In this document: piece after piece, positions 1 to 11,412 of the stretch
How positions within the stretch are numbered: position 1 is the first letter of the stretch
Layout: each line of letters starts with the position of its first letter
NCBI RefSeq assembly: GCF_913775985.1
Contig: NZ_CAJYMB010000124.1
Span: 1 to 64,000, forward strand
Direction: 5' to 3'
DNA from: an uncultured Pluralibacter sp.
GTDB taxonomy: Bacteria; Pseudomonadota; Gammaproteobacteria; Enterobacterales; Enterobacteriaceae
DNA: 64,000 nucleotides
The notes under the pieces: model-generated
What the model was told of the DNA's origin: nothing
The model's input: the letters and a program-made list of their open reading frames with translations, nothing else
The model's database searches: none
Position numbers and translations under genes: made by a program

Positions 1-1057
1 CGTCGCCAACGTCCACGGAGCCGATGATTTCACCGTTGTCCCAGACGTCGATGCGGTTGCCCGGCTCGCCGGTGCCTGAGAGCTCCGGCTGCGGGTCGTC
101 GGTTACGTCGCCGCTCTGGATCGGGCCGGTCTTCTCGCCCACGTTATCCATGGCAACCGGTGGCTTATCATTGCCTGCTGGCGCCGTAGTATCGACGACA
201 ATATTCATCCCCGGCGACGGTTCAGAAACATTGCCTGCACGATCGGTTTCAGTAGTAGAGATATCATGGCTTCCGTCAGCTAAAGGCACATCCGGCGTCC
301 ATGACCAATTTCCGTTATCGTCAACGGTTGTTGAACCAATCGCTTTATTGTTATCGAGGATGGTAATTGTATTGCCCGGCTCACCTTTACCGGTGATTTG
401 CGGGCGAGTTTCATCGGTGATATCGCCTGGTGAAAGCGGTCCGGTTTTAGTTCCGGTATTATCCAGCATTCCACTAACGCCCTGACTTACCGGCGGTGTC
501 GTATCAATGACGGGATTATCATGATGACCGTCACCTTTACGATTATGATGAACCACGGCAGCGCCTACACCCACCGCACCTGCGAGCCCAAATAACCCCA
601 GGAAAAGTGGCCACAGAGTAGTATCTGATTCGTCAGCGGCAAAGAATGCGTCTCCTGGCCCGACGGAAATACCGCCTAATGCAACAGGTAGCATCTGCCC
701 ATCGTTAACGACGTAGCCAGCCTCATAGCTTTCCCCAGACAGCGGAACATAAGGGTAAAGTTGACCATCTTCTGACATTCCTATCAGGACAGGTGAACGC
801 TCACCATCTCCAAGCTCGGCAAAGTAATCTTCGAGAATGAGGCAAGGCTTGTCATCGCCTTCATTGAAAACCAGAAGATCGTTATCTATGCGTTTTATCG
901 TGATGTTTTCTGGTGCAAAATTATCTGATTTGTTCTTCAGCAGATACACTGTATCTGATTTAGTTAATACACTAACCGTATTGTCAGAAGCGGGTTCGAA
1001 CATTCCACTTTTTCCATCCGTAGTCCTTGTGACGAGGACGATATTCTTCTCGTACAT
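1..1057 (-). CDS. BapA/SiiE-like giant Ig-repeat adhesin, N-terminal part (partial)
   Basis: The reverse strand is open from an ATG at 1057 to the window edge (about 352 codons, no stop), so only the N-terminus is present. A GGAG ribosome site lies just before the ATG. Residues 1-145 form a soluble prefix beginning MYEKNIVLVTR. Residues about 147-170 are a hydrophobic, glycine/alanine-rich segment (LWPLFLGLFGLAGAVGVGAA) followed by a His/Lys/Asp-rich linker. From about residue 178 there are two tandem bacterial Ig-like units of roughly 100 residues, with the shared pattern DNxGxKTGPxxxGDxTDxxxP and G(K/T)GEPGN. This layout is typical of Bap/BapA-type biofilm adhesins exported by type I secretion and anchored at the surface. 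Full length, C-terminal secretion signal and secretion genes lie outside the window. The first codons are AT-rich and the second repeat is GC-rich. Family assignment is confident; function in biofilm or host adhesion is inference. Confidence 0.85.
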   Translation of the reverse strand, partial: MYEKNIVLVTRTTDGKSGMFEPASDNTVSVLTKSDTVYLLKNKSDNFAPENITIKRIDNDLLVFNEGDDKPCLILEDYFAELGDGERSPVLIGMSEDGQLYPYVPLSGESYEAGYVVNDGQMLPVALGGISVGPGDAFFAADESDTTLWPLFLGLFGLAGAVGVGAAVVHHNRKGDGHHDNPVIDTTPPVSQGVSGMLDNTGTKTGPLSPGDITDETRPQITGKGEPGNTITILDNNKAIGSTTVDDNGNWSWTPDVPLADGSHDISTTETDRAGNVSEPSPGMNIVVDTTAPAGNDKPPVAMDNVGEKTGPIQSGDVTDDPQPELSGTGEPGNRIDVWDNGEIIGSVDVGD

Positions 1058-1620
1058 ACTTTCTCCAGATATGATTTTTGAGCTCAGCTCTCCAGGCAAA
1101 CTCTTGGCGGTTAGGCCAATCTTAATATTCTATTTAACCAACAAGGCCAAAGATACCGAGGGAAATAGACCCTAAATAACCTCAGTTTTGAAACAGCCCA
1201 AAAACACATCATAACCAACTGAAATAAAAAGAGTTTAAACCCCAAGCAACGTGCCGATCCCGCCAGAAAAATAATCAAATTTAAGAAATACTCAATTAAT
1301 TACTTACGCTTTTTCAGAAGAAATAAGTAATTTATTCCGTATTACCGTAAGATGAACCTGTATTTAAAATAAGGTTCACAAGGAATTCTACGAAAGCCAG
1401 AGCTCGATACTACGAAGCCTGCAATAGACTTAATGACTAATACGCACAGTACTGTAGTTAATCCATTAATATTACTTAATTATTTCTTTTGGTTATTTAT
1501 GGCAGTTAGTCATGTATTGTTACAAGATGAAGATGGGATAATGCAGAAATAAGAGCAGTATGAGTTTTTGAAAAAGTCTAATACTTGCCACCCTAAGTTA
1601 GAAATGGCAAGAAAAAAATA
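1058..1620. other. AT-rich intergenic region upstream of the adhesin
   Basis: No credible gene is seen in these 563 bases. They lie between the adhesin start and the 3' end of a LuxR-type gene that points the same way, so they should contain the adhesin promoter. They hold an 8-bp perfect inverted repeat (1298-1305 and 1325-1332), and three short words (TCATAACCAACTGAA at 1209, ATTACTTA at 1299, ATTACCGT at 1341) that recur in the same order upstream of the winged-helix regulator at 3346. No promoter boxes can be assigned with confidence. Confidence 0.5.
1298..1332. promoter_or_regulatory. Inverted repeat in the adhesin upstream region
   Basis: AATTACTT at 1298-1305 is matched by AAGTAATT at 1325-1332 with a 19-base spacer. 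It could be an operator for one of the adjacent regulators, but in AT-rich DNA a chance dyad is also possible. It has no T-run and does not look like a terminator. Confidence 0.3.
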
Positions 1621-2238
1621 TTACCTGTCTGTTTTTTTAGACAGAGGTCCTTTTAGCTGCCAGCTTTTAATGCCTAATTTTTTAAAAATATTCGATTTAT
1701 GAGAACTTATTGTTTTTTCACTTCTGGAGAGCTTATGAGAAATCGATTTATTAGTTTCACCAGCAAGGCACAGTCTGAGAATTTCTTTTTCTCTACGCGT
1801 TAATCCTGCTTTTTCATAAATATCATCAGCCATATTACCATATGCTGGTGCCACACAGTTTGAAATATTCCATGAAAAGCAATACCCTCCCCCTACGATT
1901 AGCTCAATAGCTTTAGCCAGAAATCCGGCATTCACGTTGCGATTAATCATCCCTTTCAAAGAAGGCAACTCATTTTGAAAGGTGCGCAGGAGATTGCTTT
2001 CCACTGCAATGACTAATACTGGAATATGAGTTCCAGAAAACATATTACTTACAGTATCTAAATGCGGGCTTACTGCTTCACAATCAAGAATAATAATATC
2101 GTAGTGATCATGAAAAGGAGTACAGCCATCGCTTTCAATACTAGCGAATACAATATCGTCCTTAACAAAATATTGCTTAAGGATATAATACATCCCATTA
2201 CAGCTGAGATTATCTATTCCTACGTATAACATTTTCAT
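1621..2238 (-). CDS. LuxR/FixJ-type transcriptional regulator
   Basis: 205 residues. The N-terminal half looks like a response-regulator receiver (MKMLYVGIDN start, acidic residue in IIILDCEAV near residue 53). The C-terminal part is a GerE/LuxR helix-turn-helix: LTRREKEILRLCLAGE, then KSISHKLSRSEKTISSHKSNI, about residues 142-187. This is the size and domain order of RcsB/FimZ/YhjB-type regulators. It lies 33 nt downstream of a second LuxR-type gene and points towards the adhesin, so the two regulators probably form an operon. No cognate histidine kinase is visible. The gene is AT-rich relative to the backbone, which suggests horizontal acquisition. Control of the neighbouring adhesin is inferred from position only. 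Confidence 0.85.
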   Translation of the reverse strand: MKMLYVGIDNLSCNGMYYILKQYFVKDDIVFASIESDGCTPFHDHYDIIILDCEAVSPHLDTVSNMFSGTHIPVLVIAVESNLLRTFQNELPSLKGMINRNVNAGFLAKAIELIVGGGYCFSWNISNCVAPAYGNMADDIYEKAGLTRREKEILRLCLAGETNKSISHKLSRSEKTISSHKSNIFKKLGIKSWQLKGPLSKKTDR

Positions 2239-2271
2239 TGTCAGTTTCCCTTCCGCCCAATGATTTTTATT

Positions 2272-2931
2272 TTAAATGGGAGAGAATGTTTCAGAGTTAT
2301 TATAAAAAATTGGTAATTTAATACGCCTGGATGTATCAATATTAGGTGTTTTTGAAATGCCAGAACTCTTTCCATACGGCATTTTCTTATTTAATGATAA
2401 TGGTAAAAAAAGCATTAATGATAACAGAGCAATGTCATTATTGTTAATCAGCCCTGACTTTTCACTAATATGACTTTTATGTAAACTTACCGTTTTGATA
2501 CTCAAACCTAGCGATGAGGAAATCTCCTTAAGACTCGCCCCTTCAAGCATCATAGACATAACCGTTTCTTCTCGCTGAGTAAGATATCTCTTACGCAAAG
2601 CATACTTTTTCCCATATAAAACGCTCTCAACATCTTGAACTGATGCATGAGCAGATAAAAAAAATATATTGTTAACTTCTGATAAGATAGTAGAGAATTT
2701 AAAATCAAGGCAGATAATTATCTTTGCCCGGCTATAATTCATATAGTGGTTATAGAAATAATACATATCTTCTAGTGAGGAAAGGTTTAGCAAAATCCAG
2801 TCTTCACTTGAGATATGCGGGAAAAAACGCCTGTTCTTTTTTACATTTTCAGGGGAATAATAGATAGCATCGACTACGTCCTGCAGTCCCTGCATGTAAT
2901 AATAATTATCAGTTACAATCAAAACCTTCAT
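2272..2931 (-). CDS. LuxR-type regulator with degenerate receiver
   Basis: 219 residues. The N-terminus (MKVLIVTDNYYYMQGL) resembles a receiver fold, but the usual phospho-acceptor position reads ILLNLSS, with no clear aspartate, so phosphorylation is doubtful. A LuxR helix-turn-helix follows at about residues 115-165: YLTQREETVMSMMLEGASL, then KEISSSLGLSIKTVSLHKSHI. A C-terminal tail of about 50 residues is not conserved in the family as I know it. It is the first gene of a probable two-gene regulator unit (33 nt before the next gene) and is divergent from the winged-helix gene at 3346. AT-rich composition marks it as accessory. Confidence 0.8.
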   Translation of the reverse strand: MKVLIVTDNYYYMQGLQDVVDAIYYSPENVKKNRRFFPHISSEDWILLNLSSLEDMYYFYNHYMNYSRAKIIICLDFKFSTILSEVNNIFFLSAHASVQDVESVLYGKKYALRKRYLTQREETVMSMMLEGASLKEISSSLGLSIKTVSLHKSHISEKSGLINNNDIALLSLMLFLPLSLNKKMPYGKSSGISKTPNIDTSRRIKLPIFYNNSETFSPI

Positions 2932-3345
2932 GATTATTTTCGCTATATTAGCAAGTCGTATACACTTCTTAACCTACTCCATTAACTCTTGCTCCTGAGA
3001 GATGAAGTGAGGAACCCATTACCTGAGCATCGGTTGAAGATGCGGATGTTCAGCATACCCCTTACACAACTCTTGAGACGATAGTAATCAAGAAAATTCT
3101 GTAATGGATACTCATATTTTTATGAAATACACCACTTCATAACTTCACTTCTTCATAAAGTCATAACCAATTGAATTTTAAGTAAAATCACATTTAAGCA
3201 TTACTTAAAATTACCGTTTCGATTATTTTTTATTGAGATTTTTCTTACGCATCATAAGCTGAATTGTGCTGTCCCTGTGCTAATATGCAACTTCATAAAT
3301 CAGATGGATTCTGATAGTTATCATTATTAGCAAAGCAGATGTGAT
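2932..3345. other. Divergent intergenic region between regulators
   Basis: 414 AT-rich bases with no credible gene. They must contain promoters for the leftward LuxR-type gene and the rightward winged-helix gene. The octamer CTTCATAA occurs three times on the + strand (3135, 3151, 3291), the first two 16 bases apart. TCATAACCAATTGAA (3161), ATTACTTA (3200) and ATTACCGT (3210) also occur upstream of the adhesin. These are possible regulator sites, not proven ones. Confidence 0.4.
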
Positions 3346-4146
3346 ATGGATACCATTTATCTTATTGATAACTCTTTCATTTTTAACCCTTCAGCGCATA
3401 CCTTGCAAAAAATAGAGGGTAGCGAAACTATTAATCTGGCCATTTCGGCTAGCCTCTGCTTAACACTCCTTATTGAAAATCAAGGAGAGGTGACATTACG
3501 CCATGAGCTTCTCAACCAGGTCTGGGGGAGTCGAGGCATGAACGTAACCACTAACACGCTTTATCAGAATATCTCATTATTACGTAAGGCTTTTACCCGA
3601 GCAGGTATTGATATATCAATGATTCAGACAGTACCAAGGCGTGGTTTCTTATTTGATAGAAATGTTGATATCAAAAAGCAGATTGGGGAAAGAAGGCCGA
3701 CCAAACTAATTGATACATCTGACGTTTATAATGCAAGATCGACAGAGATATACCAGACGGTAAACTATGCTTCAAATTTAACGCTCAGTAAAGAAGACAA
3801 TGCAAAAATAACCACAAAGTGTTATAAAAAAATAGCCATTGGTAGTATAAGCATATTCTTGTTTATCATGATTTTTATTACTGCTTATGCAAGTAAGTTG
3901 GATAGCCTGCCTGAGACTTATGATAGGTTTATTTCTAAAAACAGCTGCGTAAAGAACATCAATCAGAGCTCAGCCATCGCTAACGGCTATGATAAAAATA
4001 CTGCGAATAGTGATTTTAAGTGCGGCCAAAGGAATACAACATCAAAACTAATACATCATCCTGTATCACACCCGGACAGCGTGCTATGCCAATACCCGAT
4101 AACGTTATCCCATTGGTCTGAGTGCGCCCCGTCAGTTTATTTTTAA
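3346..4146 (+). CDS. Membrane-anchored winged-helix regulator (ToxR/CadC-like)
   Basis: 266 residues. Residues about 1-105 are an OmpR/PhoB-type winged helix: LRHELLNQVWGSRG, then NTLYQNISLLRKAF, then IQTVPRRGFLF, the hallmark of the CadC/ToxR group. A single transmembrane segment spans about 163-184 (IAIGSISIFLFIMIFITAYA). The C-terminal part, about 80 residues and presumably periplasmic, contains four cysteines that could form disulfides and is shorter than the CadC sensor. Such proteins bind promoter DNA from the membrane. It is divergent from the two LuxR-type genes and shares promoter words with the adhesin, so adhesin control is a reasonable inference. AT-rich, accessory. Target and signal are unknown. 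Confidence 0.82.
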   Translation: MDTIYLIDNSFIFNPSAHTLQKIEGSETINLAISASLCLTLLIENQGEVTLRHELLNQVWGSRGMNVTTNTLYQNISLLRKAFTRAGIDISMIQTVPRRGFLFDRNVDIKKQIGERRPTKLIDTSDVYNARSTEIYQTVNYASNLTLSKEDNAKITTKCYKKIAIGSISIFLFIMIFITAYASKLDSLPETYDRFISKNSCVKNINQSSAIANGYDKNTANSDFKCGQRNTTSKLIHHPVSHPDSVLCQYPITLSHWSECAPSVYF

Positions 4147-4582
4147 GAGCACCAAAAAAATATCCCCGGATAGTCAACCAATAGCACAGGTTGCTGCCTT
4201 TTAATGAAAGGCGATCTTATTTTCTTAGCGAACCTATTCATTAGGCAGTATTAAGTATTAGCAGTTAACTTATTACTATGCTATCAGTTGAATGAAGTCA
4301 CTGGATGTCAGTATTTATATCAAAATGAGTAGTCGGGAGTCAGTTCATCTAATACATACGCTACCGGCAAGGCCCTGACGGAGCAGGAGCACATATCCTC
4401 ATTTAAAGTGCCAGCTCCCTGAGCGTTGCCTGTGATACCTCAAATCAGCGTGGATATCATCAACAGCTACCTTAACGCGCCGTAAAGCTTTAGTCTGCGC
4501 CCCGCTCCAGCATGGGTTATAAAAAACCCCGGATATTGAATGACAACATCCGGGGTGTTCAGATCGCACTAAGTAAAAGTAC
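4147..4582. other. Intergenic region, no gene recognised
   Basis: Between the winged-helix gene and the 3' end of bax. Apart from the bax terminator at 4521-4556 I see no conserved feature. A 66-codon open frame here matches nothing I know and overlaps that terminator. Confidence 0.5.
4521..4556 (-). terminator. Rho-independent terminator of bax
   Basis: On the reverse strand ACCCCGGAT pairs with ATCCGGGGT (4526-4534 with 4548-4556) around a 13-base loop, followed by six T. It sits 27 bases past the bax stop. Confidence 0.85.
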
Positions 4583-5410
4583 TCACATATGTGCAGCAAT
4601 CAGCCGCTGATTATCCTGATACATACTCAGAAGGAAGTTGTTATAGCTGGAGCCACGCGTTGAGTAACCCTTAAGCTTATGGATCATCGCCGTAGCCGTA
4701 ACTTCCTGATCGGTCTTGCGAAGCTGGGCCCGCGACTTGCGGAAAGAGTTATACGCCGGGTGGGTATTGATATTCACAACGTACGCTTCAACAGACTCTT
4801 TGACCGAATTAAAATTCGAATAGCCTTTTACCTTACCACCGGTAGAGGAACATTTGCCACGTCCGCACTTCATACCGAACAGGTTGTTATTAGAGCGCGC
4901 GAGTTTCGAGGTGCCCCAACCGCTCTCTGCCGCGGCCATCGTGGCAACCATGCTGCCCGGGATAATGTCCACGCGCTCAAGCAGCGAGTTCCACGGAACC
5001 TTGCGGGTGTTGCCTGACCACTTGACCTTATAACGCTGGGCGATATCCTTCAGGCGCGCGCGCTCGGAAGGTGACCAGCGAGACTCATACTGCTTTGAAA
5101 TCAACCAGTTGCGATCTGAGTTGATTTTAGCATTTTGATTTTTAATAAAAGGCATCACTGTCCGGAGAAACGCTCTTTTCCTTGGGGTTCCGGAAGGGTA
5201 TTTTCGCAAATCAGGAAGTGAACTGCTCTTTGCACTATTGCGAGAATACTCTTGTTTACTGCTGACCTTAGAACTGCCTGTTGCTTTTATTATTGGGGCT
5301 TTGTGACTCGCTGTTGCCGTGTGCTTTTGTGCCAGCACTTCACCTGAAAATGCGCAGATGAGTAACATGAGTATCGCTGCCCCATATCGTCGAATGGGAG
5401 TCGATATCAT
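4583..5410 (-). CDS. bax: Bax, glucosaminidase-like periplasmic protein
   Basis: 275 residues, same length and near-identical over long blocks to E. coli Bax. A Sec signal peptide covers about residues 1-27 (AAILMLLICAFSGEVLAQ). A variable Ser/Lys-rich linker follows, then a conserved block starting SLPDLRKYPSGTPRK. The C-terminal glucosaminidase/FlgJ-type domain has the catalytic-Glu region MAAAESGWGTSKLARSNNN and the GYSNFNSVKESVEAYV block. This family cleaves N-acetylglucosaminyl linkages in peptidoglycan; the exact role of Bax is not well defined. It is divergent from malS as in E. coli, marking the return to the conserved backbone. The ATG is preceded by an AGGAGA site. Confidence 0.95.
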   Translation of the reverse strand: MISTPIRRYGAAILMLLICAFSGEVLAQKHTATASHKAPIIKATGSSKVSSKQEYSRNSAKSSSLPDLRKYPSGTPRKRAFLRTVMPFIKNQNAKINSDRNWLISKQYESRWSPSERARLKDIAQRYKVKWSGNTRKVPWNSLLERVDIIPGSMVATMAAAESGWGTSKLARSNNNLFGMKCGRGKCSSTGGKVKGYSNFNSVKESVEAYVVNINTHPAYNSFRKSRAQLRKTDQEVTATAMIHKLKGYSTRGSSYNNFLLSMYQDNQRLIAAHM

Positions 5411-5735
5411 TAGGTCTCCTGGTCGGATTTAATCATTCCAACACCGTTGGTTTATCAAAAGTTTGCGTTAAAGAGCAGCAAATTATATCAAAAATACCCG
5501 TTTGGCGCATCCCAATTAATAGTCCAATTCCGAAAGGCTGTCACCAGGCAATGCAGGCTGTTCGCGGCTTAGCGCAACATATTTATGAAATTTAACGAGT
5601 TAGCGCAGTAACATTTTCCCCCAATTTGCCCGCACGATCCTCCTGCGTCATCCTCCCCCACAAAAGCGCATCAGGAGGAGTTGCGCCTGCCGCGCCGCTG
5701 GCAAAATAGCCAAAAATCGACAACAGGTGAACGCC
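5411..5735. promoter_or_regulatory. bax-malS divergent control region
   Basis: 325 bases between divergent genes. The malS-proximal half carries the MalT-box-like elements listed separately. I see no gene in it. Confidence 0.6.
5638..5679 (+). promoter_or_regulatory. Cluster of MalT-box-like sites upstream of malS
   Basis: MalT binds copies of GGGGA(T/G)GAGG with a GGA(G/T)GA core. Here the core GGAGGA occurs on the reverse strand at 5638-5643, a better match GGGGAGGATG on the reverse strand at 5649-5658, and GGAGGA on the forward strand at 5674-5679. They end about 57 bases before the malS ATG. Three sites in a short stretch before a known maltose-regulon gene support MalT activation; binding itself is inferred. 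Confidence 0.7.
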
Positions 5736-7766
5736 ATGAAGCTTGCCGCCCTGCCCATTCTCCTCCTGCCGGGATCTGCTCTCGCCGCCTGGACTACCAC
5801 GGACTTCCCCGACCTGGTGCCAGACGGTAGCGGAAAATTCGTTACCCACAAAACGCTGGATAAAGGCGTACGCACGCTGCAGCTTAGCGCTGACGGCCAG
5901 TGCTGGCAGCCGGCTTCCCCCATTAAGCTCAATCAAACACTGTCGATGATGCCCTGCGAAGGTACCGCCCCCGAATGGCGCATCTTTCGCCGCGGTAGCT
6001 ACACGGTCGCGGTAGACACGCGGTCGGGCACGCCGACGCTGCTGCTGAGTATTGAAAATACAGACCCGCCAGAAAAAGCGCCCGCGCTGCGCCAGTGCCC
6101 GCTATGGGACGGTAAACCGCTGACCGTTGAGGTGAGCCCCACCTTCGTCGAGGGTAGCCAGGTACGGGACTTTTACAGCGGGCAGACGGCGATTGTGAAG
6201 CAGGGAAAAGTCACGCTGCAGCCCGCCGCCGACAGCAACGGCCTGCTGCTGCTTGAGCAAGCCAGCGCGCCCGGCACAGCGCCCTTTGACTGGCACAACG
6301 CTACCGTCTACTTCGTCCTCACCGACCGCTTTGCCAACGGCAATCCCGATAATGACGGTAGTTACGGCCGCCACCGGGACGGCATGCAGGATATCGGCAC
6401 CTTTCACGGCGGCGATCTGGCCGGCCTTACCGGCAAGCTGGATTACCTTCGCCAGCTCGGGGTTAACGTGCTGTGGATAAGCTCGCCTCTGGAGCAAATC
6501 CACGGTTGGGTGGGCGGCGGCACCAAAGGGGATTTTCCGCACTATGCCTATCACGGCTATTACCCGATGGACTGGACGAAGCTCGACGCCAACATGGGCA
6601 CCGAAGCCGATCTACTCAAGCTTGTGGATGAAGCCCACCGCCGCGGCATCCGCATTCTTTTTGACGTCGTGATGAATCACGCCGGCTACGCCACGCTTGC
6701 AGACATGCAGGAGTTTCAGTTCGGCGCTCTATACGTGGCCGGAGCCGAGAAGGAAAAAATCCTCGGCGCGCGCTGGACGGACTGGACGCCGGGCCCGGGA
6801 CAGACGTGGCACAGCTTTAACGACTACATCAACTTCAGCGATAAATCCGGCTGGGCCCAATGGTGGGGCAAACACTGGATCCGCACCGACATCGGCGACT
6901 ACGACAGCCCGGGCTTTGACGATATCACCATGTCGCTCTCCTTCCTGCCCGATTTAAAGACCGAATCCACCGAAGCCTCGGGCCTGCCGATATTCTATCA
7001 GCACAAACCCGACACCCGCGCCCGGGACATTCCCGGCTTTACCCCGCGGGATTACCTCACCCGCTGGCTCAGCCAGTGGGTACGCGACTACGGCATCGAC
7101 GGCTTTCGCATAGATACCGCTAAACACGTCGAGCTTCCCGCCTGGCAGCAGCTGAAAGACCAGAGCCAGCAGGCGCTGGCCGCGTGGAAAAAGGCCAATC
7201 CGGGCAAATCCCCGGACGAGGGCCCTTTCTGGATGACCGGCGAGTCCTGGGGCCACGGCGTCATGAAAAGCGCGTATTACCAGAATGGCTTTGATGCGAT
7301 GATCAATTTTGATTATCAGGAGCAGGCTGCCAAAGCCGCCGGCTGCCTTGCGGATATTGATCCGGTCTGGCAGCAGATGGCGGAAAAACTGCAGGATTTC
7401 AACGTACTGAGCTATCTCTCTTCGCACGATACGCGGCTGTTCCGCGAAAGTGACTCCTCTGCTGCCGAACTACTGCTGCTCGCCCCCGGTGCGGTACAGA
7501 TTTTTTACGGTGATGAATCCGCGAGGCCCGAGGGCCCGGGCGGCTCGGATCCGCTGCAGGGCACCCGCTCTGATATGAACTGGCAGGATGTTACCGGGAA
7601 AGATGCCGCGCGGGTTGCGCACTGGCAAGTGCTCGGCCAGTTCCGCGCGCGTCATCCGGCTATCGGCGCGGGAAGGCAAACGACACTGCCGCTGCCCCGG
7701 GGCTACGGATTTGTCCGCGAGCGCGGCGACGATAAGGTCATGATTATCTGGGCAGGCAAATCCTGA
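5736..7766 (+). CDS. malS: Periplasmic alpha-amylase MalS
   Basis: 676 residues from the ATG at 5736, equal to E. coli MalS. A GTG nine bases upstream is less likely because AACAGG is well spaced from the ATG. Signal peptide MKLAALPILLLPGSALA. The glycoside hydrolase 13 domain begins near residue 190 (FDWHNATVYFVLTDRF). Visible catalytic regions are DVVMNH, GFRIDTAKHVE (nucleophile Asp), MTGESWGHG (acid/base Glu) and LSSHDTRLF (third Asp). It hydrolyses long maltodextrins in the periplasm so that the products can be imported by the maltose system. It stands alone, divergent from bax, with MalT-like sites upstream and a terminator after the stop. Confidence 0.97.
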   Translation: MKLAALPILLLPGSALAAWTTTDFPDLVPDGSGKFVTHKTLDKGVRTLQLSADGQCWQPASPIKLNQTLSMMPCEGTAPEWRIFRRGSYTVAVDTRSGTPTLLLSIENTDPPEKAPALRQCPLWDGKPLTVEVSPTFVEGSQVRDFYSGQTAIVKQGKVTLQPAADSNGLLLLEQASAPGTAPFDWHNATVYFVLTDRFANGNPDNDGSYGRHRDGMQDIGTFHGGDLAGLTGKLDYLRQLGVNVLWISSPLEQIHGWVGGGTKGDFPHYAYHGYYPMDWTKLDANMGTEADLLKLVDEAHRRGIRILFDVVMNHAGYATLADMQEFQFGALYVAGAEKEKILGARWTDWTPGPGQTWHSFNDYINFSDKSGWAQWWGKHWIRTDIGDYDSPGFDDITMSLSFLPDLKTESTEASGLPIFYQHKPDTRARDIPGFTPRDYLTRWLSQWVRDYGIDGFRIDTAKHVELPAWQQLKDQSQQALAAWKKANPGKSPDEGPFWMTGESWGHGVMKSAYYQNGFDAMINFDYQEQAAKAAGCLADIDPVWQQMAEKLQDFNVLSYLSSHDTRLFRESDSSAAELLLLAPGAVQIFYGDESARPEGPGGSDPLQGTRSDMNWQDVTGKDAARVAHWQVLGQFRARHPAIGAGRQTTLPLPRGYGFVRERGDDKVMIIWAGKS

Positions 7767-7778
7767 GCATTCGACTCA

Positions 7779-7810
7779 ATCCCTCCGGTTCACCGGAGGG
7801 ATCTGCTTTT
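7779..7810 (+). terminator. Rho-independent terminator after malS
   Basis: ATCCCTCCGG (7779-7788) pairs with CCGGAGGGAT (7793-7802) around a TTCA loop, followed by CTGCTTTT. Begins 12 bases after the malS stop. Confidence 0.8.
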
Positions 7811-7926
7811 AACATAAACATAATCAGCACAAATCACTCATCGTATGACCACTCCCCCGTTTGCACCACGCCAGCGCAAGGGTTATCGTTAGCCACTTCT
7901 TTGTGAGACCGACAGATTACCCGCAT

Positions 7927-9192
7927 ATGACATTTTCACTTTTCGGCGACAAATTCACCCATCACTCCGGTATTACCCGCCTGATGGAAGACCTTAACGA
8001 CGGCCTGAGAACGCCGGGAGCCATCATGCTCGGCGGTGGAAACCCGGCGCAAATTCCGCAGATGAATGATTACTTCGACCAGCTGCTGGCGGAGATGCTG
8101 AAAAGCGGGAAACTCGCAGACTCGCTGTGCAACTACGACGGCCCGCAGGGCAAGTCAGAGCTGCTGACCCTGCTGGCGCAGATGCTGCAATCGGAGCTGG
8201 GCTGGGATATCGGACCACAGAATATTGCACTGACAAACGGCAGCCAGAGCGCATTTTTCTACTTGTTTAATCTCTTCGCGGGCCGCAGGGCCGACGGTAC
8301 CACCCGCAAGGTGCTGTTTCCCCTGACGCCGGAGTACATCGGCTATGCCGACGCCGGTCTTGAAGAAGACCTGTTCGTCTCCGCGCGGCCGAACATTGAG
8401 CTGCTGCCGGAAGGCCAGTTTAAGTACCACGTTGATTTTGAGCATCTGCGGGTGACTGACGAAACCGGGATGATCTGCGTTTCGCGCCCGACCAACCCTA
8501 CCGGCAACGTCATTACCGACGACGAGCTGAGAAAGCTGGACGCTATTGCCAACCAGCACAATATTCCGCTGGTGATTGATAACGCTTACGGCGTGCCTTT
8601 CCCGGCCATTATCTTCAGCGAAGCGCGCCCGCTGTGGAATCCAAACATCGTGCTGTGTATGAGCCTGTCGAAGCTCGGCCTGCCGGGCAGCCGCTGTGGA
8701 ATTATTATTGCCAGCGAGCAGATCATCAGCGCCATCAGTAATATGAACGGCATTATCAGCCTGGCACCCGGCGGCGTCGGTCCGGCAATGATGTGCGAGA
8801 TGATCAAACGTAACGATCTGCTGCGCCTGTCGGAAACCGTAATCAAGCCGTTTTACTATCAGCGCGTTCATGAAACGATTGCCACAATTCGCCGCTATCT
8901 GCCGGAAGATCGCTGCCTGATCCATAAACCGGAAGGCGCCATTTTCCTCTGGCTGTGGTTTAAAGATCTGCCGATTACTACCGAAGTGCTTTACCAGCGC
9001 CTTAAAAAGCGCGGCGTGCTGATGGTGCCCGGGCACTTCTTCTTCCCGGGCCTGGATAAGCCCTGGCCGCACACTCACCAGTGCATGCGCATGAACTACG
9101 TGCCGGATCCGGAAAAAATTGAGGCGGGCGTGAAAATACTGGCGGAAGAAGTTGAAATCGCCTGGCGGGAGAGCGGCTGTGAGCCAGCCTGA
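7927..9192 (+). CDS. avtA: Valine-pyruvate aminotransferase
   Basis: 421 residues from the ATG at 7927, which matches the E. coli AvtA start (MTFSLFGDKFT); the frame is open further upstream but that part is not conserved. Fold-type I PLP enzyme: GSQSAFFY near residue 100, SRPTNPTGN, DNAYGVPFP, and the Schiff-base lysine in MSLSKLGLPGSRCG. It transfers amino groups between valine (or alanine) and keto acids in alanine/valine synthesis. The C-terminus is about four residues longer than in E. coli (ESGCEPA). Same position and orientation as in K-12, after malS, with a strong terminator behind it. Confidence 0.97.
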   Translation: MTFSLFGDKFTHHSGITRLMEDLNDGLRTPGAIMLGGGNPAQIPQMNDYFDQLLAEMLKSGKLADSLCNYDGPQGKSELLTLLAQMLQSELGWDIGPQNIALTNGSQSAFFYLFNLFAGRRADGTTRKVLFPLTPEYIGYADAGLEEDLFVSARPNIELLPEGQFKYHVDFEHLRVTDETGMICVSRPTNPTGNVITDDELRKLDAIANQHNIPLVIDNAYGVPFPAIIFSEARPLWNPNIVLCMSLSKLGLPGSRCGIIIASEQIISAISNMNGIISLAPGGVGPAMMCEMIKRNDLLRLSETVIKPFYYQRVHETIATIRRYLPEDRCLIHKPEGAIFLWLWFKDLPITTEVLYQRLKKRGVLMVPGHFFFPGLDKPWPHTHQCMRMNYVPDPEKIEAGVKILAEEVEIAWRESGCEPA

Positions 9193-9508: not shown

Positions 9509-9765
9509 GGTCGTATTCCTTAGCTAATCTGTTCACTGGAAGGCGTTTCGCCTTGATGTGATAAATAGTAGCCGCAGACCTGACTGATTAAAATCGAAAC
9601 AATTTGCAGTTCTCATTCAAAATAAATGAATAATAATACCTCTCATTGTTTTACCTCTCTGAGCAACTTTCCGACCCGGCTAAACATCTCCTGAAACACC
9701 TGCATAATTGACAAATCCTGACGTGACAGTAATTATGCACCCAAATTACTGACCAGGCAGCAATC

Positions 9766-10218
9766 ATGCAGGACGATTATCCGCAAACGCTCAAACTCAA
9801 CCTTGCGCTTCTCTTTCACCTGTCGAACCAGTTCAAAGACCAGCTGATTGGCAAATACTTTGCCGGGATTGGCGTCACCGCCGCGCAGTTCAAGGTACTG
9901 ATCAATATCTATCGCGGTACCGTCACGCCGGCGGAGATCTGCAAGCACCTGCAAATGGATACCGGCGCCATGAGCCGGATGATTGGCAGGATGGTTAATA
10001 GCCAGCTGATAGAGCGTCATCCCGACCCGCACAATAAACGCCAGGTGCGGCTGGGCCTGACCGACAAAGGCAGAGAAATCTGCCAGTCTTTTGAAAGCGT
10101 CGCGCTGGCGGACATCCTCGGCGATCTCACCGCACGCCTGGCCCCGGAAGAAGTGAATCAGCTTACCGGCCTGCTGCTCAAGCTGCTGCCGGACGAATTT
10201 ACCGCCCGCTATCGCTAA
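9766..10218 (+). CDS. MarR-family regulator of the adjacent efflux operon
   Basis: 150 residues. Winged helix-turn-helix at about 45-110: VTPAEICKHLQMDTGAMSRMI (recognition region), then ERHPDPHNKRQVRLGLTDKG (wing with the DxRxxxLxLTxxG-type pattern). MarR proteins repress drug-resistance genes and are released by small phenolic or lipophilic ligands. It is followed after 15 nt by an EmrA-like gene and then an EmrB-like gene in the same direction, as mprA (emrR) precedes emrAB in E. coli. It is distinct from chromosomal mprA by locus (K-12 mprA is elsewhere), so this is an additional efflux unit. Ligand unknown. Confidence 0.88.
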   Translation: MQDDYPQTLKLNLALLFHLSNQFKDQLIGKYFAGIGVTAAQFKVLINIYRGTVTPAEICKHLQMDTGAMSRMIGRMVNSQLIERHPDPHNKRQVRLGLTDKGREICQSFESVALADILGDLTARLAPEEVNQLTGLLLKLLPDEFTARYR

Positions 10219-10233
10219 CGTTAAGGCACTCAA

Positions 10234-11412
10234 ATGACCGACACCACCACTGAATCTCCCGCGCGTCCGGGCAGAAGAAAACGTAATTTACTGATACTTC
10301 TGCTTGTGCTGGTGCTGATTGGCGCAGGCACCCTGGCCTGGTATCTGCTCTACGGCCGCTACTACGAAAGCACCGATGACGCCTACGTTAACGGCAATCT
10401 GGTGACCCTGACGCCGCAGATCACCGGCACGGTAACCCAGGTCAGCGTTGACGACGGCGATCTCGTCCATAAGGGCCAGCCGCTGGTGCAGCTCGATCCC
10501 AGCGACACAAAAATCGCGCTGGAGCAGGCCGAAGCTTCGCTTGCCAACACCGTTCGCCAGGTGCGTGGCCTGTACAGCACGGCGGATAACTATCGCGCTC
10601 AGGTGGCCGCCCGCCGGGTTGCGCTGAAAACCGCGGAGAGCGATTTCGCCCGGCGCAGCAAAATTTTCGCCGCCGGGGCGGTCTCCGCCGAAGACCTCTC
10701 CCACTATCGGGATGCCGTGACCTCCGCCCGCAGCGATTTAGCCGCCGCCGAACAGGCGCTGAACACTAACCAGGCTATGGTTGACGACACCGTTATTGAC
10801 AGCCATCCGGAGATCAAAGCTGCTGTCGCGACGCTGCGCCAGCGCTATCTCGACAACGCCCGTACCGCGATCCTGTCTCCGGTCAGCGGCTATGTGGCCA
10901 AACGCGCCGTGCAGCTGGGAATGCGGGTCACTTCCGGCACCACGCTGCTGTCCATTGTTCCTCTTGATGAGGTGTGGGTTGACGCCAACTTCAAAGAGAG
11001 CCAAATGCAGGCGATGCGCCTCGGCCAAAAGGTCACCCTCAGCGCCGATCTGTACGGCGACGACATCAAGTATCGGGGACGCATCGAAAGCCTGGGGATC
11101 GGCACCGGCAGCGCCTTCTCGCTGCTGCCCGCGCAGAACGCCAGCGGCAACTGGATCAAAATCGTCCAGCGCCTGCCGGTGCGCATTGTTCTCGACCCGC
11201 ACGATATGCAGAAGCACCCGCTGCGCATCGGCCTGTCGATGGACGTAAAAGTGGATATTCACAACACCGACGGGCATCTGCTGCCGCAGAAAACCGTGGC
11301 GCAGCCGCGATTTACCACCGACGTCTACGATTCACCGCTGGCAGGCGCCGACCGGCTGGTGGCTAAAATCCTGCATGAGAATCTCAGCGCCGCTGCTGCG
11401 GTAAAACCGTAA
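10234..11412 (+). CDS. EmrA-like membrane fusion (HlyD-family) protein
   Basis: 392 residues. A short cytoplasmic Arg/Lys-rich N-terminus precedes one membrane anchor at about 18-38 (LLILLLVLVLIGAGTLAWYLL). The biotinyl-lipoyl-like motif spans YYESTDDAYVNGNLVTLTP and VSVDDGDLVHKGQPLVQLD. A coiled-coil hairpin occupies about 95-200, and the barrel region contains ILSPVSGYVAKRAVQLGMRV and VWVDANFKESQ. It links the inner-membrane pump encoded next to it with an outer-membrane TolC-type channel. It lies between the MarR gene (15 nt) and the EmrB-like gene (9 nt). No outer-membrane factor is encoded here. Confidence 0.92.
   Translation: MTDTTTESPARPGRRKRNLLILLLVLVLIGAGTLAWYLLYGRYYESTDDAYVNGNLVTLTPQITGTVTQVSVDDGDLVHKGQPLVQLDPSDTKIALEQAEASLANTVRQVRGLYSTADNYRAQVAARRVALKTAESDFARRSKIFAAGAVSAEDLSHYRDAVTSARSDLAAAEQALNTNQAMVDDTVIDSHPEIKAAVATLRQRYLDNARTAILSPVSGYVAKRAVQLGMRVTSGTTLLSIVPLDEVWVDANFKESQMQAMRLGQKVTLSADLYGDDIKYRGRIESLGIGTGSAFSLLPAQNASGNWIKIVQRLPVRIVLDPHDMQKHPLRIGLSMDVKVDIHNTDGHLLPQKTVAQPRFTTDVYDSPLAGADRLVAKILHENLSAAAAVKP

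Follow-up and report, generated by a model that had tools for sequence, protein, structure and literature searches.

A predicted common-pilus control cassette beside a giant adhesin and its own LuxR regulator in an uncultured Pluralibacter

Gene content of the locus

The stretch of DNA analysed here (the window) comprises positions 1 to 64,000 of contig NZ_CAJYMB010000124.1 in the assembly GCF_913775985.1 of an uncultured Pluralibacter sp. Read from the first base of the contig, positions 1-5410 carry the N-terminal part of a giant adhesin on the minus strand, two LuxR-family regulator genes, referred to as LuxR-A and LuxR-B, also on the minus strand, a gene on the plus strand for a ToxR/CadC-like transcription factor, and bax on the minus strand; to the right of bax lie malS and an avtA-like frame (named avtA by our own reading). 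The features discussed below are the following.

2-1057, minus strand: N-terminal part of a giant adhesin with immunoglobulin-like (Ig) repeats, BapA/SiiE-like, cut by the contig end (Big_13, 2.5e-20)
1116-1155, minus strand: block upstream of the adhesin, a possible promoter or leader, alike in three relatives that have LuxR-A, as read by eye on an alignment
1621-2238, minus strand: LuxR-A, CsgD-like LuxR-family regulator of 205 amino acids (GerE, 1.1e-17)
1624-1645, minus strand: weak terminator-like hairpin at the end of LuxR-A, from a consensus scan
2272-2931, minus strand: LuxR-B, LuxR-family regulator of 219 amino acids without the receiver Asp (GerE, 1.2e-12)
3112-3125, no strand: palindrome TCATA-N4-TATGA, candidate operator of the LuxR-B/ToxR-like cassette, kept in pilus loci
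3346-4146, plus strand: ToxR/YqeI-like transmembrane transcription factor of 266 amino acids (Trans_reg_C, 1.3e-12)
4147-4582, no strand: stretch where pilus loci carry a FidL/YqeJ-like partner gene, of which the window has no trace
4583-5410, minus strand: bax, chromosomal flank of the island (NF007681, 2.2e-151)

The G+C content of the three regulator genes is 33-39%, compared with 51% for the adhesin piece and 58% for window 5411-64000. Open reading frames and Pfam matches agree with the original prediction, made from the sequence alone, of an AT-rich block beside bax that holds an Ig-repeat adhesin, two LuxR-type proteins and a membrane-anchored ToxR/CadC-like protein; chance or artefact as the origin of these frames was rejected, since they are open and match curated families. 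A reading of the open reading frames of window 1-9000 revealed no kinase, no search aimed at kinases having been made. The source genome (G000) consists of 4.78 Mb in 160 contigs and is rated 98.55% complete. Because the window starts at the first base of its contig (C124), the adhesin is cut by the assembly and just 366 amino acids of it are contained in the window.

LuxR-A and the giant adhesin

The adhesin frame is open at window base 2 and likely starts with the ATG at 1057, with a TTG in frame at 1099. Its Ig-like repeats follow a conserved N-terminal head, as in adhesins of the BapA/SiiE type, and this head of 179 amino acids is 34-65% identical to those of open frames that reach 7,545 amino acids in 31 other genomes of the 392 that were searched. 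Members of the LuxR-A family, detected at 1e-30 with a profile of ten LuxR-A-type sequences, occupy 18 places in 13 of these 392 genomes of the family, and when these places were compared with 18 of the adhesin-head places, 13 of the 18 had an adhesin head that begins 350-814 bp further downstream in the same orientation (the source genome is included in both counts). Among the five remaining places, one lies 475 bases from a contig end (G245:C128) and another, the second copy in G051, faces away from the adhesin. LuxR-A is predicted to be the dedicated regulator of the adhesin operon, because the adhesin head lies just downstream at 13 of its 18 family places.

Direct reading of individual loci gave a similar association. 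LuxR-A was present in eight of 11 close adhesin loci and a ToxR-like gene in none of the stretches read; this count omits four weaker heads (L106, L114, L117 and L118), and when all 15 loci are considered the numbers become 8/15 for LuxR-A and 1/15 for the ToxR-like gene (L106). At the eight loci with both LuxR-A and the adhesin, neither LuxR-B nor a ToxR-like gene occurs on the upstream side that was read, which spans about 13-14 kb in most. In an alignment of the LuxR-A/adhesin intergenic regions, read by eye, the window resembles L099, L103 and L105 in the block that lies 59-98 bp upstream of the adhesin, and less clearly L101 and L107; two of the first three relatives are near-identical to each other.

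The best NCBIfam match of LuxR-A is CsgD, at 54 bits, which does not reach the family cut-off of 250. Pfam gave no Response_reg match at E<=1 for LuxR-A or LuxR-B. At the phospho-acceptor place LuxR-A has D52, an Asp in 10/10 aligned sequences including that of the window, while placement by eye puts an Asn there in LuxR-B, Gln in its G283 relative and His in the six Raoultella-type relatives described below, which confirms the earlier remark that one of the two LuxR proteins has no clear phospho-acceptor Asp.

In the G051 locus (L107), two LuxR-A relatives (7956-8579 and 9746-10378) stand back to back and one alone faces the adhesin, whose frame there is in separate short pieces.

The LuxR-B/ToxR-like pair

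Strong matches to LuxR-B occur in four of the 392 genomes, the source genome and three others, and no match was obtained in plasmid records. ToxR-like homologs were matched at 1e-12 in 106 of 295 genomes, and reading 40 chosen ToxR-like places, three of them in the source genome, gave a LuxR-type match of any kind at seven. A scan of genome contigs with ToxR-like sequences and one peptide pattern produced 66 loci, in six of which a LuxR-B ortholog (188-206 bits with a LuxR-B profile) diverges from the ToxR-like gene. These six Raoultella-type loci (L159-L164) come from Raoultella terrigena, R. ornithinolytica, R. planticola, Raoultella sp. BIGb0138, Enterobacter sp. 10-1 and JUb54, the last two being recorded as Enterobacter sp., and in each of them LuxR-B is followed by fimbrin, chaperone, usher and tip-like genes, and the ToxR-like gene by a FidL/YqeJ-like one. 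The same divergent arrangement with fimbrial genes is found in G283 (L068). The three other genomes with strong LuxR-B matches present the G283, R. terrigena and JUb54 loci again (L068, L159 and L162, repeated as L225-L227 with 100% identical DNA). True orthologs of both LuxR-B and the ToxR-like protein were found at seven other distinct loci, and all seven lie beside fimbriae of the common-pilus type.

The type of the pilus is indicated in L159 by matches to EcpA (303 bits, cut-off 200) and EcpD (970 bits, cut-off 900), and in both L068 and L159 by matches to MatB and EcpB_C. LuxR-B is 45-47% identical to the LuxR proteins of the six Raoultella-type pilus loci. Against the EcpR model it scores 16.4 bits, short of the cut-off of 300, and its orthologs score 21.8 bits (L159), 16.5 bits (L162) or do not match (L164 and L068). 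As judged from gene neighbourhood, LuxR-B and the ToxR-like gene are predicted to be a control pair of fimbriae of the Escherichia coli common pilus (ECP/Mat) type.

The original prediction had called all three regulators dedicated and had named a locus survey as its test. In the survey LuxR-A does co-occur with the adhesin (13/18), LuxR-B and the ToxR-like gene do not, and the description can be kept for LuxR-A alone, the other two standing at fimbriae in 7/7 other loci.

Two other regions of the source genome resemble parts of these loci. At G000:C39:387-3168 (L156) a second divergent set of LuxR (GerE, 5.3e-10), ToxR-like and FidL-like genes lies beside fimbria-like genes, without the palindrome, and the operon at G000:C150:25177-27648 (L236) encodes an usher with 43% identity to that of the Raoultella-type common pili; a short gene borders this operon on either side, one of them matching the LuxR type weakly, under the cut-off, and the other without a Pfam match.

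The shared palindrome

The palindrome of the window lies between LuxR-B and the ToxR-like gene, 234 bp before the start of the latter. It is found exactly, 245-249 bp before the ToxR-like start, in six of the seven pilus loci (L068, L159, L160, L161, L163 and L164) and with one mismatch in L162, and much of the DNA around it differs between the window, G283 and the Raoultella type. It was not found in ten other ToxR-like loci. In the source genome the strict 16-base form is found twice, in the cassette and within a nikR-like coding frame. A loose form of the palindrome arises in 9 of 1000 shuffles of the intergenic region, and a variant with 3-base spacing occurs by itself elsewhere in L162 and L163; the weight of the proposal that the palindrome is a candidate operator of the LuxR-B/ToxR-like cassette is carried by its kept place across three diverged lineages.

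The ToxR-like protein, its sensor domain and its partner

The ToxR-like protein has an N-terminal winged helix-turn-helix (wHTH) domain of ToxR type, a single predicted transmembrane (TM) helix and a periplasmic domain with conserved Cys residues. Among profiles of PDB structures its best match is the ToxR DNA-binding domain (2.5e-22), with CadC at 3.5e-9. Its AlphaFold model consists of the wHTH (1-113), a linker and a helix at 160-186, and block means of the predicted local distance difference test score are 90-97 over residues 1-110; the TM assignment (about 160-186) is taken from this model, and the periplasmic part is of low confidence. Four periplasmic Cys are invariant in 22/22 sequences, namely that of the window and those of 21 loci selected from the 66 for their full-length proteins.

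Compared with the six Raoultella-type proteins, the periplasmic domain is 21-25% identical in the window and 46-49% in G283, and the wHTH 50-56% and 62-68%, respectively. For LuxR-B the pairs of identities that serve for comparison are 39-42% and 54-57% in the window against 32-39% and 47-49% in G283, and the window is thus as close to the Raoultella type as G283 is, or closer. The linker and TM helix are poorly conserved throughout. The sensor part has changed more than the rest of the cassette, since the gap between the window and G283 is large for the periplasmic domain, smaller for the wHTH and absent for LuxR-B.

In all seven pilus loci the FidL/YqeJ-like gene begins within about 25 bases of the ToxR-like stop codon; the protein from one of them has a weak match to the Pfam family FidL_like (0.0026, 18.6 bits, cut-off 27). 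Searches of window 1-4800 for such a gene or a relic of it, by profile and by tblastn, gave nothing significant (best profile E 0.45), and the two FidL-like matches of the source genome, on C39 and C147, directly follow other ToxR-like genes. Because the lipocalin-like partner gene is not found directly downstream, the ToxR-like protein of the window is classed, from its gene context, as an orphan factor of the co-component family of VtrA/VtrC and YqeI/YqeJ kind and not as a complete system.

The two sides of the island

In the same-genus genome G001, the sole other genome of the genus that was compared, bax has DNA 85% identical to that of the window and is preceded by xylR. The gene order there is glyQ, acyltransferase, AraC-type regulator, isochorismatase-like, xylB, xylA, xylF, xylG, xylH-like, xylR, bax, malS and avtA, where xylB, xylA, xylF and xylG were named by NCBIfam, xylR and the AraC-type gene by Pfam, and xylH from a permease match under the cut-off. 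The original prediction that the block stands where K-12 has xylR is thus correct in kind. A search of the source genome for xylA gave no match, in a search without a positive control for that query.

The source genome has its strongest further adhesin matches on contig C1, whose start falls within a C-terminal adhesin part of 2,595 amino acids, and G000:C1:3-7790 is the probable continuation of the adhesin of the window. It is followed on C1 by a halogenase-like gene (PF04820, 1.3e-104), an OmpA-like gene and genes for a type I ATP-binding cassette (ABC) exporter (TIGR03375, 853 bits, above the cut-off), HlyD and a TolC-like protein, and further on by a short isochorismatase-like frame, an acyltransferase gene (PF01757; wecH by our own reading) and glyQ. 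C1 is the only contig with adhesin matches that offers a C-terminus, and its far side, with the acyltransferase gene and glyQ, is the expected flank. In G018 and G210 a single contig carries an open frame of about 6,000 amino acids with LuxR-A and the adhesin head on one side and halogenase-like, OmpA-like, ABC, HlyD and TolC genes on the other, where the adhesin ends also match. Because the G001 gene order, the xylA search and the G018 and G210 loci agree, C124 and C1 are very probably the two sides of one island that lies in place of the xylose genes. A C-terminal secretion region and genes of the type I secretion system (T1SS), for which the original prediction pointed to the left flank, are present on C1 and would belong to the adhesin of the window if C124 and C1 join, a join that is inferred and not seen.

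Two other contigs were considered for the 3' end of the adhesin and rejected: C80 holds an N-terminal opening next to a kdsA-like gene (by our own reading), and C56 an N-terminal opening after a TolC-like gene. Because these openings (G000:C80:5120-6742 and C56:8332-9318, both ending at contig ends) belong to further giant adhesins, the source genome probably carries at least three adhesins of such kind.

The halogenase-like gene of C1 (G000:C1:7915-9426, L051), which is of the flavin-dependent (tryptophan) type, has the adhesin on one side and the T1SS operon's OmpA-like gene on the other. It is likewise present in G018 (at one of two loci) and in G210, and the G320 locus has no match to it.

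Proposed cascade and alternative explanations

The architecture of the island is well supported, and from it a mode of regulation can be inferred. The reading favoured here, which is considered rather probable, is that of a composite island in which a pilus-control cassette has come to lie upstream of the LuxR gene that belongs to the adhesin, with a cascade as the result. One module would be the type I secreted giant adhesin operon, with its CsgD-like LuxR-A acting at the adhesin promoter, and the other the common-pilus control cassette, composed of the divergent LuxR-B and ToxR-like membrane factor with the conserved palindrome between them; LuxR-A and the adhesin would follow LuxR-B where the relatives have the pilus operon. 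In the cascade, an envelope signal would act on the periplasmic domain of the ToxR-like protein, this protein and LuxR-B would act at the intergenic region to switch a luxR-B/luxR-A transcript, and LuxR-A would in turn switch the adhesin operon from its own promoter. LuxR-B ends 33 bp before LuxR-A, and the two genes are probably on one transcript, because this short gap contains no terminator-like site in a consensus scan and one follows LuxR-A; that hairpin is weak, as 9 terminator-like sites were found in 1-5500 and 4.0 were expected. The broader proposal, that a portable pilus-control cassette has been re-targeted to a T1SS giant adhesin and that its membrane factor became a one-component sensor on loss of the lipocalin partner, is given an even chance. 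The signal has probably changed, given the absence of the lipocalin-like co-component and the divergence of the sensor domain, and LuxR-B and the ToxR-like gene were probably brought into the adhesin locus from a pilus locus, a direction suggested by the greater abundance of the pilus form among the genomes searched.

Several observations weigh against this reading. The island was found in one genome only and is absent from G001, whose DNA left of bax has no match to the window, and the join of C124 to C1 is an argument from synteny and homology and not from sequence across the join. The seven pilus loci are not independent of one another (L159 and L160 are 91% identical, L163 and L164 95%, and the six Raoultella-type loci share 81-87% or more identity over long stretches), and they derive from one peptide pattern and one sample of 392 genomes, so that the adhesin form may have been missed elsewhere. 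LuxR-A and the adhesin have no further strict palindrome in their vicinity, a promoter consensus scan did no better than chance (9 found, 14.0 expected), and the argument for a shared transcript is one of spacing. The source genome has another common-pilus-like operon, on C150, and the diverged sensor domain could signify decay.

Some of these points lead to other explanations of the locus. The operon on C150, which has no LuxR-B/ToxR-like cassette beside it, and the further fimbria-like genes on C39 (by our own reading) might be fimbrial targets on which the cassette acts in trans, its place beside the adhesin being a matter of chance, but the strict palindrome is absent from both contigs, the C150 operon has other short genes on both sides, one of them with the weak LuxR-type match, C39 has its own divergent LuxR/ToxR-like/FidL-like set, and LuxR-B is just 33 bp from LuxR-A, so this explanation is regarded as unlikely. 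It is also quite unlikely that the cassette is a decaying remnant which lost its co-component and pilus operon and now regulates nothing, as the absence of a partner gene beside the ToxR-like gene and the low periplasmic identity to the Raoultella type (21-25%, against 46-49% for G283) might suggest, because the LuxR-B and ToxR-like frames are open and of full length and the wHTH (50-56% identity), all four Cys and the palindrome have been kept. Divergence of the sensor domain does not by itself discriminate between new specificity and decay, and it is the retention of the Cys, the wHTH and the palindrome that would favour function.

The remaining explanation is that of the original prediction, in which all three regulators serve the adhesin alone and have evolved together with it as a self-contained switch. 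The regulators are contiguous and all AT-rich, LuxR-A accompanies the adhesin in other genomes, and a ToxR-like gene stands beside a related adhesin in two other genomes, in one of them with a LuxR gene; against this, none of the eight LuxR-A/adhesin loci has LuxR-B or a ToxR-like gene on the upstream side read, and the seven distinct orthologous LuxR-B/ToxR-like pairs are all at fimbriae, which makes joint evolution of the three with the adhesin quite unlikely. What survives of the switch is an adhesin operon with a local LuxR and a ToxR-type factor, and what does not is the idea that the three regulators form one set.

If the composite island with its cascade is confirmed, it would represent a natural output swap of a co-component system, and ToxR/co-component cassettes for envelope sensing would be modular in output, the same pair and operator standing before common-pilus genes or before a giant adhesin. 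The two kinds of locus, of which one has the lipocalin partner and the other lacks it, would also form a natural comparison for testing the role of that partner, and the candidate operator could be used to search for the regulon.

Comparison with known systems

No published report of the combination of a LuxR pair, a ToxR-like factor and a giant adhesin was found in the open-licence literature. Parallels in kind are offered by two loci from the genomes searched. In G028 (L139), ToxR-like, FidL/YqeJ-like, small wHTH-like and OmpA-like genes, together with a LuxR gene (GerE, 1.3e-07), lie at an adhesin, and Tenebrionibacter intestinalis (L106, the same locus as L199) has the same gene set at an adhesin, with no LuxR seen in the stretch read. 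In both, the ToxR-like and FidL-like genes are divergent from the small wHTH-like gene (Trans_reg_C below the cut-off), the adhesin heads are distantly similar to that of the window (37 and 43 bits), and the stretches read end before any secretion genes. A ToxR-like regulator set at an adhesin thus appears to be rare but not without parallel.

The adhesin, taken together with its probable continuation and the exporter genes on C1, resembles adhesins of the BapA/SiiE type with exporters of the LapB/LssB type in its Ig repeats, RTX-like C-terminal repeat and ABC, HlyD and TolC genes, and differs in that the operon here adds the halogenase-like and OmpA-like genes and LuxR-A. CsgD, the NCBIfam family nearest to LuxR-A, is separated from it by the wide distance between score and cut-off. 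The likeness to ECP/Mat of E. coli is that the relatives' LuxR-B stands just before genes of the EcpA, EcpB, EcpC and EcpD types, whereas no pilus genes follow LuxR-B in the window and LuxR-B is far below the EcpR cut-off. LuxR-B stands at the position of ecpR, which we take to be the LuxR-type first gene of the E. coli ECP/Mat operon, and a ToxR-like neighbour is presumably not part of that operon.

The genes STM0341, STM0344 and STM0347 of Salmonella, which we assume to lie by the stb fimbriae, likewise bring ToxR-like factors together with a LuxR-type regulator close to fimbrial genes. STM0341 and STM0344 are given as ToxR-like factors (PMC9214523), and STM0347 is assigned to the LuxR family (PMC3361161) and likened to CsgD (PMC9368917); the difference from the window lies in the fimbrial neighbourhood and in the co-components present there. 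Co-component systems, in which ToxR-like factors act with lipocalin-like partners, are described in the same source (PMC9214523), as are the factors of the VtrA/YqeI/GrvA/MarT type within the ToxR superfamily. With these the ToxR-like protein shares a wHTH, one TM helix and conserved periplasmic Cys, one of them near the C terminus, and through its pilus relatives it shares the FidL/YqeJ-like gene that follows the ToxR-like gene, whereas the window factor is without a partner gene and has a LuxR pair and a T1SS adhesin as its neighbours. PsaE, MyfE, YqeI and MarT are tabulated among transmembrane transcription regulators in another source (PMC10269533). The PsaE/PsaF and MyfE/MyfF pairs of Yersinia resemble the window in having a membrane-anchored factor of ToxR type, which there controls fimbriae, whereas the window factor neighbours a T1SS adhesin and is accompanied by two LuxR genes.

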